Program-made: the position numbers and the translations under genes
Notes under the pieces: model-generated
Seen by the model: the letters and a program-made list of their open reading frames with translations, nothing else
Database searches by the model: none
Told to the model about the DNA's origin: nothing
Assembly (NCBI RefSeq): GCF_028292965.1
Contig: NZ_JAQGLG010000060.1
Span: 1 to 34,211, forward strand
Direction: 5' to 3'
Origin: Sphingomonas bacterium
GTDB taxonomy: Bacteria > Pseudomonadota > Alphaproteobacteria > Sphingomonadales > Sphingomonadaceae
Length of the DNA: 34,211 nucleotides
In this document: piece by piece, positions 24,779 to 29,051 of the stretch
Layout: each line of letters opens with the position of its first letter
How positions within the stretch are numbered: the first letter of the stretch is position 1

Positions 24779-24833
24779 CGTGGTTGAGGCAGGGCTGTCG
24801 CGCCCGAGACTTTTCTCCGATTGGGGTGGCATA

Positions 24834-27572
24834 GTGACGATCAAGGTTTCCACGTTCGGCGCCCGCGCCACCGCCCTGCTGCTCGGGGGGACGGTACTGG
24901 CCGGCGTGCCGGTATCCGCCTTCGCGCAGACGGCGCCCGTACAGGCGCCACCTGTTGCGCCGGCACGGGTTGCCGCAGCATTGCCCGCCGCACCCGTGGC
25001 GCAGGTGATCAAGTCGCTGCGCGTCGAGGGTTCGCAGCGCATCGAGCCGGAGACCGTGCTCTCCTACACCAAGCTGCGCATCGGCCAGGCCTATACCAAC
25101 GAGACGCTCGATCAGGCGATCAAGGATCTCTACGCCAGTGACCTGTTCGCCGACGTGTCGATCACCGGCGCCTCGTCGGGCGAGATCGTGCTGCGCATCC
25201 GCGAGAACCCGATCATCAATCGCATCGTTTTCGAAGGCAACAAACGGCTCAAGGAAGACAAGATCCGCAAGGAGATCAAGCTCGCGCCGCGGCAGATCTT
25301 CACCCGCACTGCGGTCCGTCAGGACGTCGCGCGCATCATCGAACTGTATCGCCGCCAGGGCCGTTTCGCCGCGTCGATCGAACCGAAGATGGTCGCGCTC
25401 GACCAGAATCGCGTCGACATCATCTTCGAGGTCAATGAAGGGCCCAAGTCCAAGGTCCGTCAGATCAACATCCTCGGCAACGAGGTGTTCTCCGACGGCA
25501 AGCTGCGCGAGCAGATGGCGACCAAGGAAGCGCGCCTGAGCCGCCTGCTGAGTTCGAGCACCAGCTACGATCAGGATCGTCTGGCCTATGACCAGCAGAA
25601 GCTGCGCCAGTTCTACCTGACCCAAGGCTATGCCGATTTCCGCGTTACCTCGGCCGTCGCCGAGCTGACGCCGGACAAGAAGGACTTCATCATCACCTAT
25701 GTGGTGGAGGAAGGTAAGCGCTACAAATTCGGCGATGTAACCGTCGACAGCGACATTCGCGATTTCGACAACAAGAAGCTCGCCGCCAGCCTCGGGATCA
25801 TCAAGGGCAGCTGGTACAACGCCAAGCGCGTCGAGGATTCGGTTGATTCGCTGAACCAGGCCGCCGGCCTGTTTGGCTACGCCTTCACCGACACCAATCC
25901 GGAATTCCAGCGCGACCCCGAAACGCTGACGATGTCGATCAACTTCCACATCGCGCAAGCGCAGCGGACCTATGTCGAGCGCATCGACATCAACGGCAAC
26001 ACCCAGACGCAGGACAAGGTGATCCGGCGCGAGATCCGCATCGCCGAGGGTGACGCGTTCAACAGCTTCCAGGTCAAGCGCTCGCAGGACCGCATCAACT
26101 CGCTCGGCTTCTTCCAGGAGAAGTTCGAGATCAAGCAGGTGCCGGGCTCGTCGCCCGACCGTGTCGTGCTCGAAGCGAACGTCGAAGAGAAATCGACCGG
26201 CGAGCTGTCGCTCTCGGCCGGTTTCTCGAGCCTCGAGAAGTTCATCATCCAGGCGTCGATCACGCAGCACAATTTCCGTGGCAAGGGCCAGGAGTTGCGC
26301 GCCAGCGTAAACTATTCGACCTATTCCAAGTCGGTCGAACTGGGCTTCACCGATCCGTATCTGTTCGATCGCAACATCGCCATCGGCGGCGACATCTTCC
26401 GCCGCGATTACAATGCGTTCAACTATGTCGGCGATCAGCGTCAGACGACCTACACGCAGGTTTCGACCGGCTTCCAGATTCGCGCCGGCATCCCGCTGAC
26501 CGAATTCTGGTCGCTCTCGGCACGTTACGGGCTGACCTATGATCAGGTCGGGCTCGACCAGAGCACCTATTTCACCAACGGCGCGTGCGATCCGCTCAAG
26601 GCCGGGCGTTATCTGTGCGAAGCGATCGGCAACCGCTGGACCTCGTCGGTCGGCTATTCGCTGATCTTCGACAGCCTCAATAGTCGCCTCCACCCGACGG
26701 CAGGTCAGCGCATGGTGTTCAGCCAGGACTTCGCCGGGCTGGGCGGAGACGTGCGCTATATCCGCACGCGCTTCGAGGGTTCGAAATTCTTCAACGCCGG
26801 TCATGGCTTCATCTTCTCGGCCAATCTCGAGGGCGGCTACATCGCGTCGCTCGAGGGGAGCAAGGGGGCGGGCGTCGACCCCATTCGTATCACCGATCGC
26901 TTCTATCTCGGCGAGCCCGATTTCCACGGCTTCGATATTCGCGGCGTCGGCCCGCGCATCAAGCGTACGCCGTACATCACCGATGCCACGGGCGCTCAGG
27001 TGCTGGCGACCGACAAGACGCAAATCGCCGACGATGCGCTGGGCGGCCGGGCCTATTATCTCGGCCGACTGGAAATGGAGATTCCGCTCGGTTCGGGTGC
27101 GCATGAATTGGGTCTGCGGCCATCGATCTATATCCAGGCGGGTGCACTTTTCGGTATCACGCAGCCTTTGCCGACCGCGACCTTCCCGAGCGTGACCGAT
27201 CCTGTCACCGGCAGGACCACGGTTCTGCCGCTTGATCAGCAACAGCTCGACAGCGCAGGACGCTCGCTGTTCATCGTACCGACGACTGATGGGACCAACC
27301 CGGGCTTGGCGACGACCTGCCAGATCGGTTATTCCGCGACCAGCGGTGGCGCTTGTACCGGCACCTCGATCAACACCGCCTACACCATTCCGATCTCGCC
27401 ATTTGCCGAGACCTTTGTCGGCAATTCGTCACGGCCGCGCATCTCTATCGGTGCCGGCGTCAACTGGAACTCACCCTTCGGGCCGCTCCGCATCGATCTC
27501 GCTTATGCCTTGCTTCACGACAAGGGCGACGACACCAAGATTGTAACATTCAACGTAGGGACACAATTCTGA
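24834..27572 (+). CDS. bamA: Outer membrane protein assembly factor BamA
   Basis: Central Omp85 subunit of the BAM complex, inserting beta-barrel proteins into the outer membrane. About 912 residues: a signal peptide (1-31, cleavage near AFA-Q), a Pro/Ala linker, five POTRA domains to about residue 440, and a 16-strand barrel ending VTFNVGTQF with C-terminal Phe. The loop-6 motif reads FHGFDIRGVGPR. Two extracellular insertions carry cysteine pairs (GACDPLKAGRYLCE; TTCQIGYSATSGGAC). I chose GTG 24834, putting the signal peptide at the N-terminus; a GTG at 24780 would add eighteen residues in front. The last base overlaps the ompH start. Confidence 0.95.
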   Translation: MTIKVSTFGARATALLLGGTVLAGVPVSAFAQTAPVQAPPVAPARVAAALPAAPVAQVIKSLRVEGSQRIEPETVLSYTKLRIGQAYTNETLDQAIKDLYASDLFADVSITGASSGEIVLRIRENPIINRIVFEGNKRLKEDKIRKEIKLAPRQIFTRTAVRQDVARIIELYRRQGRFAASIEPKMVALDQNRVDIIFEVNEGPKSKVRQINILGNEVFSDGKLREQMATKEARLSRLLSSSTSYDQDRLAYDQQKLRQFYLTQGYADFRVTSAVAELTPDKKDFIITYVVEEGKRYKFGDVTVDSDIRDFDNKKLAASLGIIKGSWYNAKRVEDSVDSLNQAAGLFGYAFTDTNPEFQRDPETLTMSINFHIAQAQRTYVERIDINGNTQTQDKVIRREIRIAEGDAFNSFQVKRSQDRINSLGFFQEKFEIKQVPGSSPDRVVLEANVEEKSTGELSLSAGFSSLEKFIIQASITQHNFRGKGQELRASVNYSTYSKSVELGFTDPYLFDRNIAIGGDIFRRDYNAFNYVGDQRQTTYTQVSTGFQIRAGIPLTEFWSLSARYGLTYDQVGLDQSTYFTNGACDPLKAGRYLCEAIGNRWTSSVGYSLIFDSLNSRLHPTAGQRMVFSQDFAGLGGDVRYIRTRFEGSKFFNAGHGFIFSANLEGGYIASLEGSKGAGVDPIRITDRFYLGEPDFHGFDIRGVGPRIKRTPYITDATGAQVLATDKTQIADDALGGRAYYLGRLEMEIPLGSGAHELGLRPSIYIQAGALFGITQPLPTATFPSVTDPVTGRTTVLPLDQQQLDSAGRSLFIVPTTDGTNPGLATTCQIGYSATSGGACTGTSINTAYTIPISPFAETFVGNSSRPRISIGAGVNWNSPFGPLRIDLAYALLHDKGDDTKIVTFNVGTQF

Positions 27573-28245
27573 TGAAGACCAATATCAAGCTGTTGCTGGC
27601 GGGCGCGATGATCGCCCCTGTGGCATTGCTCGCGGCGATGCCGGCCAGTGCGCAGGCCGTCGCGGTTGCCGATCCGGAAGGCGCGATCGCCGCGACCAAG
27701 GCATTCACCGCCGCCACGACGCAAATCCAGACCACCTACAAGGCGGTGCTCGATCAGGCCCAGGCGCGTCGCACCGCGATCCAGGCCGAGCTGCAGCCGC
27801 TCTACACGGTGCTCGACACCAACCATGACGGCCAGCTCAGTCAGCCCGAGATCGATGCCGCCAACGCCGCGCACCGCCCGGAACTGGCCTCGATCCAGTC
27901 GAAGCAGCAGGCCGCCCAGGCCGAGCTCGGCCGTCTCGAAGGCCCGGCGACGCGCGCGCAGCAATATGCCGTCGAGCAGATCTCGGCCAAGCTCGCCCAG
28001 GCGATCCAGAGCGCGATGAGCAAGCGCGGCACGACCGTGCTGCTCAAGCCGGCATCGGTGTTCACCGCGCAGCCGGCCGGCGACCTGACCCCGGCGATCA
28101 CCGCCGAGCTCGACACACTGGTGCCGAGCGTCAGCATCACCCCGCCGGCAGGCTGGCAGCCCGGCCAGCAGCAGGCGGCACCAGCCGGTGCTGCGCCCGG
28201 CGGCACTCCGGCACCAGCCGCTCCCGGCCGTCGCGCACCGGGCCG

Positions 28246-28249
<4 letters not shown>
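27572..28249 (+). CDS. ompH: OmpH/Skp-family periplasmic protein with EF-hand loop
   Basis: Periplasmic chaperone-like protein encoded directly after bamA, the usual place of skp/ompH; Skp carries unfolded outer-membrane proteins to BAM. 225 residues: signal peptide 1-28 (PASAQA), then the OmpH pattern beginning [17 protein letters not shown], coiled-coil-forming helices to about 150, a tip strand region, and a Pro/Gln/Ala-rich tail from 190. Unusually, residues 82-93 ([12 protein letters not shown]) match a canonical EF-hand calcium loop. Its start overlaps the bamA stop by one base and its stop overlaps the fabZ GTG. Chaperone role is inferred from family and position. Confidence 0.88.
27815..27850 (+). 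other. EF-hand calcium loop coded within ompH
   Basis: The twelve residues [12 protein letters not shown] have Asp, Asn, Asp, Gln, Ser and Glu at loop positions 1, 3, 5, 7, 9 and 12, Gly at 6 and Leu at 8. This is the full consensus of an EF-hand loop. The helices expected on each side (LQPLYTVL and IDAANAAH) are present. Confidence 0.75.
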
Positions 28250-28722
<473 letters not shown>

Positions 28723-28737
28723 GCCTGAGACATATTG

Positions 28738-28765
28738 TTGCTACCCCGGCGCGGCTCTGCTAGGG
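28738..28765 (+). promoter_or_regulatory. Predicted rpmE promoter
   Basis: TTGCTA (28738-28743), 16 bases, CTAGGG (28760-28765). It lies after fabZ and before the terminator-like hairpin at 28777-28806, so transcripts from it would include that hairpin in their leader. A separate 8-bp inverted repeat, GGCGCGGC/GCCGCGCC (28748-28773), overlaps the spacer and -10. Confidence 0.5.
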
Positions 28766-28776
28766 GCCGCGCCTTC

Positions 28777-28806
28777 GCTGCTGGTCGGAAACCAGCGGCA
28801 TTTTTT
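28777..28806 (+). terminator. Terminator or attenuator before rpmE
   Basis: GCTGCTGGT (28777-28785) and ACCAGCGGC (28791-28799) form a 9-bp stem with one G-U pair and a 5-base loop, followed by six T residues (28801-28806). The T-run ends 17 bases before the rpmE ATG. It may end the pyrH-fabZ transcript, attenuate rpmE, or both. Confidence 0.75.
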
Positions 28807-28823
28807 GTCGAGGAAGTTTACCC

Positions 28824-29051
28824 GTGAAGAACGACATCCACCCCGATTATCACACCATCAAGGTGCAGATGACCGACGGCACCGTGTTCGAGACCCGCTC
28901 CACCTGGGGCAAGGAAGGCGATCTGATGACGCTGGATATCGATCCGCTGGCGCATCCGGCCTGGACCGGCGGTCGTGGTTCGATGCTTGATTCGGGCGGC
29001 CAGGTGGCACGCTTCAACAAGCGTTTCGGCGGGCTCACGCTGAAGAAGTGA
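28824..29051 (+). CDS. rpmE: 50S ribosomal protein L31
   Basis: Large-subunit protein bridging 50S and 30S. 75 residues. It starts [19 protein letters not shown] and contains HPAWTGG and [10 protein letters not shown], typical of the alphaproteobacterial form. The CxxC zinc ligands of the E. coli zinc-type protein are absent; there is no cysteine at all, so this is the zinc-independent (C-minus) form. GAGGAAG precedes the ATG. Its leader contains a terminator-like hairpin. No partner gene is evident. Confidence 0.96.

Follow-up and report, generated by a model that had tools for sequence, protein, structure and literature searches.

The periplasmic chaperone Skp (OmpH family) is a textbook ATP-free chaperone, and in Escherichia coli, too, its gene lies directly after bamA. 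The solved E. coli protein (1SG2, 1U2M) consists of a body and a helical tentacle; one account describes the tentacle tips as rich in positive residues and the tentacles as having no mutual interactions (PMC9820271), and another describes arms that become more rigid once a client is bound (PMC8573040). The closest solved relative of the protein studied here, by sequence and by fold, is the OmpH-like CC_1914 of Caulobacter crescentus (4KQT).

EF-hands are known from calcium proteins such as calcium binding protein 2 (2JNX), the polcalcins and a periplasmic calcium-binding protein of Caulobacter, in which a 12-residue loop of the DxNxDGxLxxxE type sits between two helices. In known EF-hands the ion is also held by the backbone carbonyl of position 7 and a water, glutamate rather than aspartate at position 12 is the calcium-type residue, and most hands are paired. 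Titles and abstract openings in the literature yielded no description of a calcium site in Skp/OmpH (a weak absence, as subscription journals are thinly covered), and passages from reviews of Skp make no mention of a metal site. Here we describe a Skp/OmpH protein from a Sphingomonas bacterium, encoded in a 34,211-nucleotide stretch of DNA ("the window"), whose tentacle tip is predicted to be a solitary EF-hand.

Gene, locus and protein identity

By its sequence, the ORF at 27572–28249 is a Skp/OmpH periplasmic chaperone encoded between bamA and fabZ (Table 1), in agreement with an earlier note on this DNA that had proposed both the family and the post-bamA position. Its product matches PF03938 (OmpH) over residues 30–180 with 48.7 bits, above the curated cut-off of 32.4, and in the window lpxD is absent between skp and fabZ. 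Among relatives with the same loop ("EF-type" Skps), OmpH was matched at E ≤0.1 by 22/22 members of a diverse set, signal-peptide residues A27 and Q28 were invariant in 59/59 diverse orthologs, and bamA lay directly upstream in 160 of the 161 placed loci (among loci before L321, which the neighbour-gene test covers), the remaining locus having fabZ and no upstream sequence. The Pro/Gln/Ala tail, which had been called unusual, turned out to be ordinary for the family and common to its orthologs; the structural model has low confidence there from residue 202 (pLDDT <50). Assignment to the XopAW-type calcium-binding effectors (NF041410) was rejected, with 21.6 bits against a cut-off of 120 and a match confined to residues 70–151 that reflects an EF-like stretch in common and not membership.

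Table 1. Features of the skp locus (window positions; helices from the predicted structure).
Feature	Position	Strand	Remarks
bamA, upstream neighbour	24780..27572	+	POTRA and Omp85 domains
skp/ompH gene with predicted EF-hand tip	27572..28249	+	225 aa plus stop; PF03938 OmpH and Foldseek matches
Signal peptide, residues 1-28, end ASAQ	27572..27655	+	Sec-like, judged by eye from sequence
Ascending tentacle helix (E-helix side), residues 57-83	27740..27820	+	model helix 29-55, mature numbering; overlaps loop positions 1-2
EF-hand loop, residues 82-93	27815..27850	+	[12 protein letters not shown]; ligands D82, N84, D86, E93
Short F-helix, residues 91-100	27842..27871	+	model helix 63-72, mature numbering; one-residue break at H101 before R102-P103
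Descending tentacle helix, residues 102-138	27875..27985	+	model helix 74-110, mature numbering
C-terminal tail, residues 186-225	28127..28246	+	ITPPAxWQP motif, low-complexity stretch, terminal Arg; common to orthologs
fabZ, downstream neighbour	28246..28722	+	FabA-like PF07977; start overlaps skp stop codon

A complete EF-hand loop with conserved ligands

On the translation, residues 82–93 are exactly the complete EF-hand loop that the earlier note had described, and together with residue 94 they fit the 13-position PROSITE EF-hand pattern. A chance match was rejected on two counts, i.e., the low rate at which the pattern arose in shuffled versions of the window protein (a fraction of 3.5e-5 of 200,000 shuffles) and conservation across the family; that members of a diverse family carry the loop in this gene, and with its ligands conserved, is stronger evidence that it is real than chance statistics. 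Since the window protein scores below the gathering cut-off of Pfam EF-hand_5 (11.5 versus 25.9 bits), we regard the loop as an EF-hand motif in an OmpH protein rather than the protein as an EF-hand family member. The hand is solitary, with no second one in the chain, and it is acidic (median charge −3 for the loop versus +2 for all other residues).

In 59 EF-type representatives sharing <65% identity, the side-chain ligands were D, N/D, N/D and E without exception, D82 and E93 being invariant and positions 84 and 86 exchanging only between D and N. The resulting ligand sets (DNDE in 53, DDNE in 4, DNNE and DDDE in 1 each) give a ligand charge of −3 in 57/59. Because EF-type rows were chosen by a loose pattern (D at position 1, D/N/S at 3 and 5, I/L/V/M/F/T at 8, D/E at 12), the choice of rows itself fixes D1 and accounts in part for the invariance of the other ligands; the S at 3 or 5 and the D at 12 that this pattern allows were absent from all 59. 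The codons for the ligands differ by synonymous changes among 178 loci, a count that includes repeats (GAT/GAC 56/122 at position 1; GAG/GAA 107/71 at position 12). Position 8 was hydrophobic in 95/95 representatives at <90% identity, with a single Thr in the later-read L346, and position 6 was Gly in 55 and Lys in 27 of these 95; a residue other than Gly there may weaken binding. Large hydrophobic residues precede the loop at position −1 (58/59) and position −5 (57/59), and in the F-helix, which is rich in Ala, position 13 holds a large hydrophobic residue in only 32/59.

A profile built from 22 EF-type Skps and compared with PDB sequences placed the OmpH-like 4kqt first (E 9.6e-11) and, apart from it, recovered mainly EF-hand calcium proteins aligned at the loop, e.g., polcalcin 1h4b (E 2.7e-4) and 2jnx, for which the whole-sequence E of 2.2e-6 sums several hands and the best single stretch has E 0.031. 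Individually, 10 of these 22 Skps matched Pfam EF-hand_5 at E ≤0.1 (best 0.0014). The likeness to calcium proteins lies in the loop and its flanking helices; unlike them, the proteins studied here bear a single hand, set on the tentacle of a chaperone.

Distribution among orthologs

Among the rows read, the loop occurs in the same gene in 162 genomes of 25 genera, all of one family (probably Sphingomonadaceae in the broad sense), which rejects a lone oddity of one genome or an assembly error. It is absent from 107 same-family genomes read, so that its distribution is patchy even within the genus, where 295 genomes were searched and the post-bamA protein was read in 167 (105 with the loop, 62 without). 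These proportions are biased, as reading followed rankings by similarity, either to EF-type proteins or to the OmpH model, and the latter ranking put proteins lacking the loop at the top. The counts leave out non-OmpH EF-hand loci (L089–L091, L119–L128), OmpH paralogs away from bamA (L009, L093, L100, L113, L114), loci with no usable OmpH (L060, L061, L378) and two from the LpxD search (L379, L380), and they include L054, a diverged protein beside bamA, as loop-less.

Outside the family, the loop was found in 0/58 OmpH proteins read (from 23 genomes of the same order, 26 of the same class and 9 of the same phylum, these last nine lying beyond the class); as only the best-scoring class and phylum rows were read (genomes matched: 137/337 and 107/339, respectively), other carriers are possible there. 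Three candidates were rejected, i.e., the betaproteobacterial L090, a non-OmpH protein with two EF loops, and L089 and L091, proteins with about four EF loops encoded away from bamA. The genome studied here has other EF-hand genes, a conceivable source of the loop by recombination, for which a stretch of 12 residues holds too little signal.

The earlier note had left occurrence in sphingomonads open and had named loss of the ligands in close relatives as a check; the answer to both is divided. The loop is widespread in one family, yet many close orthologs (~53% identity over the best segment) are without it. Ligands are retained wherever the loop is present (59/59 representatives), and the other orthologs carry an unrelated turn, an all-or-none pattern in which no half-degenerate loops were seen by eye among the non-matching rows read. 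Loop-less Skps of Sphingomonas, Sphingobium and other same-family genera share the locus, ~40–55% identity and a similar tail, but a turn of the APGAT, APNAN, ANPNQ or GGKP type replaces the EF loop.

Predicted structure and tip location

The model of the window protein, a predicted monomer with no ion (pLDDT 81.8, pTM 0.68; 25-row alignment, with the loop in only one other row), shows a small body and a long antiparallel helical tentacle, with lower confidence at the tip (block means of pLDDT 71–73). The best structural matches are OmpH/Skp proteins, loosely superposed. Foldseek returned 4kqt (E 3.8e-5), SkpA chains of 8gl8, Skp 1sg2_C (E 1.1e-2) and 1u2m as best matches, with probability 1.00 for 1sg2_C and 1u2m_C and loose fits over its first seven rows (TM to query 0.29–0.45, rmsd 8–10). 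VIA gave 4kqt at Z 11.2 (rmsd 8.4 over 152) and 1u2m_C and 1sg2_C at Z 9.3 (over 138), values under the Z of ~13 below which it warns of arrangements common to helical proteins; the helical bundles beyond its Skp rows are likely such arrangements and were not used.

In mature numbering, where the loop spans 54–65, the model is helical to residue 55, coil over 56–62 and helical again from 63. Loop positions 3–9 are therefore coil, and position 10 is where the F-helix begins, which is the arrangement of known EF-hands. The model of a loop-less ortholog has in its place a plain turn (62–66, own numbering) between helices 32–61 and 67–107. The loop is predicted to form the hairpin turn that caps the Skp tentacle, a place taken in the loop-less ortholog by a short plain turn. 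The helices that the earlier note had placed on either side of the loop do appear in the model; its location of the loop within the helical arms needs correction, as the models put it at the tentacle tip rather than mid-arm. Compared with the solved relatives, CC_1914 shows an 8-residue gap at the loop in the profile alignment, regains 4 residues close by and lacks the EF ligands, and E. coli Skp differs, by description, in its positive-rich tips (PMC9820271) where the loop here is acidic.

What the tip site may do

We favor, with some confidence, the explanation that the Sphingomonadaceae Skp tip is a solitary EF-hand that holds one Ca2+ and has a mainly structural role. Specifically, the tentacle-tip turn of this Skp ortholog would have become an EF-hand in which D82, N84, D86 and E93, with the position-7 carbonyl and a water, hold one ion, and this ion would neutralize the acidic loop and fix the turn between the two tentacle helices. 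The three arm tips of a presumed trimer would then be calcium-loaded folded knobs rather than flexible or basic tips, which would secure correct tip folding and may offer a surface on which clients are captured or passed on. Periplasmic Ca2+ is high and follows the medium, so the site probably carries its ion nearly always, which points to a mainly structural role. As loop carriers keep the metal-binding positions, calcium probably shapes how the arm tips are built or work; as 107 family genomes are without the loop, it is not essential to Skp function. The most likely reading is that the loaded loop acts as a staple by which calcium folds the arm tip and makes it stiffer.

A less probable alternative is that the loop cycles between empty and loaded states, the helix angle at the tip or a tip contact between protomers setting arm closure, trimer assembly or client release by periplasmic Ca2+. 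A solitary hand with an Ala-rich F-helix speaks against it, and so does periplasmic Ca2+, the usual levels of which are enough to saturate EF-hands. In its favor are the predicted position of the site at the tip and the acidity that the loop brings there, together with accounts of positive-rich and non-interacting tentacle tips in E. coli Skp (PMC9820271), of client-induced arm rigidity (PMC8573040) and of a Caulobacter periplasmic EF-hand protein induced by calcium limitation (PMC13171946). That a calcium-gated Skp evolved in the Sphingomonadaceae, with loading of the tip EF-hand opening or closing the client cage of the trimer, we likewise consider rather unlikely.

It is more doubtful still that tip Ca2+ bridges to anionic outer-membrane glycosphingolipids, BamA or acidic clients, a substitute, in bacteria that lack LPS, for the contacts with LPS that have been proposed for the E. 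coli chaperone. E. coli Skp binds LPS, and the genome studied here (94% complete) has no LpxC match (the control was positive in 4/14 genomes, E. coli included), only four sub-cut-off LpxD matches (best 29.1 versus 242.5 bits) and fabZ directly after skp; the basic tips described for E. coli Skp (PMC9820271) would fit as well. However, loop-less orthologs of the same family share the skp–fabZ arrangement, so the absence of LPS does not require the loop. Least probable is a look-alike without metal, in which selection for hairpin folding would have favored a turn rich in Asp/Asn together with a helix N-cap: out-of-family Skp tips often open the return helix with a hydrophobic residue, Ser/Ala and, two or three places further, an acidic residue (LSPEAF, LAEDAF and MSESER types resemble EF positions 8–12), and the window protein falls under the Pfam EF-hand cut-off, but a capping turn needs no combination of D1, N/D at 3 and 5 with exchanges that compensate each other, hydrophobics at 8 and −1, and E12, and the EF-type Skp profile finds real calcium proteins.

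A conserved calcium site right at the arm tips of Skp would help to explain how the arms of this chaperone are stabilized and how clients enter or leave. Natural matched pairs for testing these ideas exist in the orthologs that carry the loop and those that lack it, even inside a single genus, and an EF-hand that may have arisen inside a coiled-coil hairpin suggests an easy way in which proteins might acquire calcium sites. A calcium-gated Skp, if true, would make outer-membrane protein delivery ion-responsive in bacteria whose outer membrane lacks LPS.

The Loop Is Predicted to Lie at the Tentacle Tip

The earlier note had proposed an EF-hand loop within an OmpH/Skp-family chaperone encoded after bamA, and both translation and the family match bear this out (see the table). 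bamA lies directly upstream of skp and fabZ directly downstream, the fabZ start overlapping the skp stop codon, and the nearest named relative among the matches listed, Sphingomonas sp. AR_OL41, is 80% identical and carries the same loop.

Features of the skp gene, its product and the genes that follow
Feature	Position	Detail
skp	27572-28249 (+)	225-residue product; OmpH family model match
Signal peptide		assigned by eye
Helical hairpin	mature 29-110	AlphaFold model
EF-hand-type loop	residues 82-93 (mature 54-65)	from translation; hairpin turn in AlphaFold model
Coil in loop	mature 56-62	helix resumes at 63 (AlphaFold model)
F-helix	to mature 72	short; then one-residue break beside Arg-Pro and long return helix (AlphaFold model)
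Tail	residues 186-225	conserved ITPPAxWQP motif; near-invariant C-terminal Arg (57/58 representatives); Gln/Ala/Pro stretch of variable length between
fabZ, rpmE (L31)	28246-29051	follow skp in this order; the skp-fabZ junction lacks lpxD, and the gene next to fabZ is not lpxA

In the AlphaFold model (mean pLDDT 81.8) the protein follows the Skp plan, a small body with a single long hairpin of helices, and the loop falls at the predicted tentacle tip; the helix-loop-helix that had been anticipated is predicted there as the hairpin turn itself. Confidence is lower at the tip (71-73), probably in part because just one other alignment row has the loop. OmpH/Skp structures top the Foldseek and VIA lists, with loose superposition, and the model of a loop-less ortholog (locus L063) is a plain hairpin whose turn has five residues. 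Against proteins of known structure, a profile of 22 loop-bearing orthologs, themselves picked by loop pattern, matched OmpH-like 4kqt first and EF-hand proteins second, the latter aligned at the loop. The best EF-hand value, 2.2e-6 (2jnx), sums several hands (best single hand, 0.031); polcalcin, over its whole sequence, scored 2.7e-4.

Conservation of the Loop

Across 59 EF-type (loop-bearing) proteins of <65% identity, D82 and E93 are constant (59/59) and N84 and D86 swap with D or N only, an invariance that is partly circular as rows were chosen by loop pattern. Columns 82, 93, 84 and 86 rank 3, 4, 11 and 12 in conservation among 211. Loop positions 1, 3, 5 and 12 read DNDE in 53 proteins, DDNE in 4, DNNE in 1 and DDDE in 1; charge is gained at position 3 in five proteins, in four of which position 5 loses one, a compensation that would be expected at a metal site. 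Ligand codons differ synonymously among loci, and the helix before the loop carries a large hydrophobic at position -1 in 58/59 and -5 in 57/59. Ligand loss in relatives, which would have counted against the site, was all-or-none among the rows read: rows failing the pattern, read by eye, have unrelated turns (APGAT, APNAN, ANPNQ, GGKP, LSPEAF) and no damaged EF loops. As segment lengths overlap (30-43 residues in EF-type vs 27-35 in loop-less proteins), the change is as much a turn replacement as an insertion. Judged from these alignments, the loop is a real conserved feature of the Skp orthologs that carry it.

Distribution and History

Profiles of loop-bearing proteins were run on genus (295 genomes), family (397), order (246), class (337) and phylum (339), the OmpH model additionally on relatives and genus, and the best-scoring matches of all searches were read. 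Among these, the loop occurs in the same gene of 162 genomes from 25 genus codes and a single family code, f1, which we infer to be Sphingomonadaceae in the broad sense. It is absent from the best-scoring OmpH proteins read outside the family, in 23 genomes of the same order, 26 of the same class and 9 of the same phylum. Of 161 EF-type OmpH loci placed, 158 are flanked by both bamA and fabZ, whereas 2 show bamA alone and 1 shows fabZ alone because the fetched piece ends there; five further loci with an EF loop proved not to be OmpH genes.

Within the family, 107 of the genomes read have a loop-less post-bamA ortholog. Both forms occur in seven genus codes (g1, g36, g66, g88, g101, g111, g117), in different species, and no single family genome read has both. 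Some same-genus genomes hold a diverged loop-less OmpH protein away from bamA (loci L009, L093, L100, L113, L114).

A quick tree of 104 orthologs, built without the loop columns, requires 2 changes to account for loop presence vs a mean of 34 with shuffled labels; its starred branches force just 1, with 39/101 inner branches drawn open. One gain with later loss, or two gains, are both compatible with this tree, and the mixed genus codes suggest gene replacement or differential or repeated loss. Outside the family, Skp tips often carry a hydrophobic-Ser/Ala helix cap followed, two or three residues later, by an acidic residue; this resembles EF positions 8-12, and the loop may have been built ahead of it. 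Two phylum-level Skp tips (L387, SNGDVMSDSER; L388, KDGDVMSESER) bear an odd resemblance to the latter half of an EF loop, but are one residue short.

A Putative Calcium Site

Published accounts describe E. coli Skp as having positively charged tips and arms without mutual contacts (PMC9820271) and flexible arms that stiffen on client binding (PMC8573040), and describe Skp as forming around its clients with a very tight hold (PMC13067283). Here, in contrast to those positive tips, the loop is acidic (median charge -3), and one Ca2+ would neutralise and fold it. From sequence and model, a calcium-loaded structural staple at the arm tip is the most likely role; a calcium switch at the same place is less likely. 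Docking of the loop to anionic lipids or partners is possible: LPS contacts are probably not available to this Skp, since its own genome (assembly 94% complete) lacks any match to LpxC and has none to LpxD that exceeds the cut-off, and the skp-fabZ-rpmE order fits a genome without an LpxC match. However, loop-less orthologs sit in the same gene order, so LPS absence alone does not require the loop.

The own genome has 18 EF-hand_5 matches with E ≤ 1, one of which is this gene; the other 17 lie on contigs C28, C52, C55, C83, C89, C128, C247 and C252, several in tandem in one frame. Together with the periplasmic EF-hand calcium protein reported from Caulobacter (PMC13171946), they make periplasmic calcium proteins plausible in this organism. 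By its sequence, the EF-tipped Skp is a new form of a known chaperone family, with a putative Ca2+ site.
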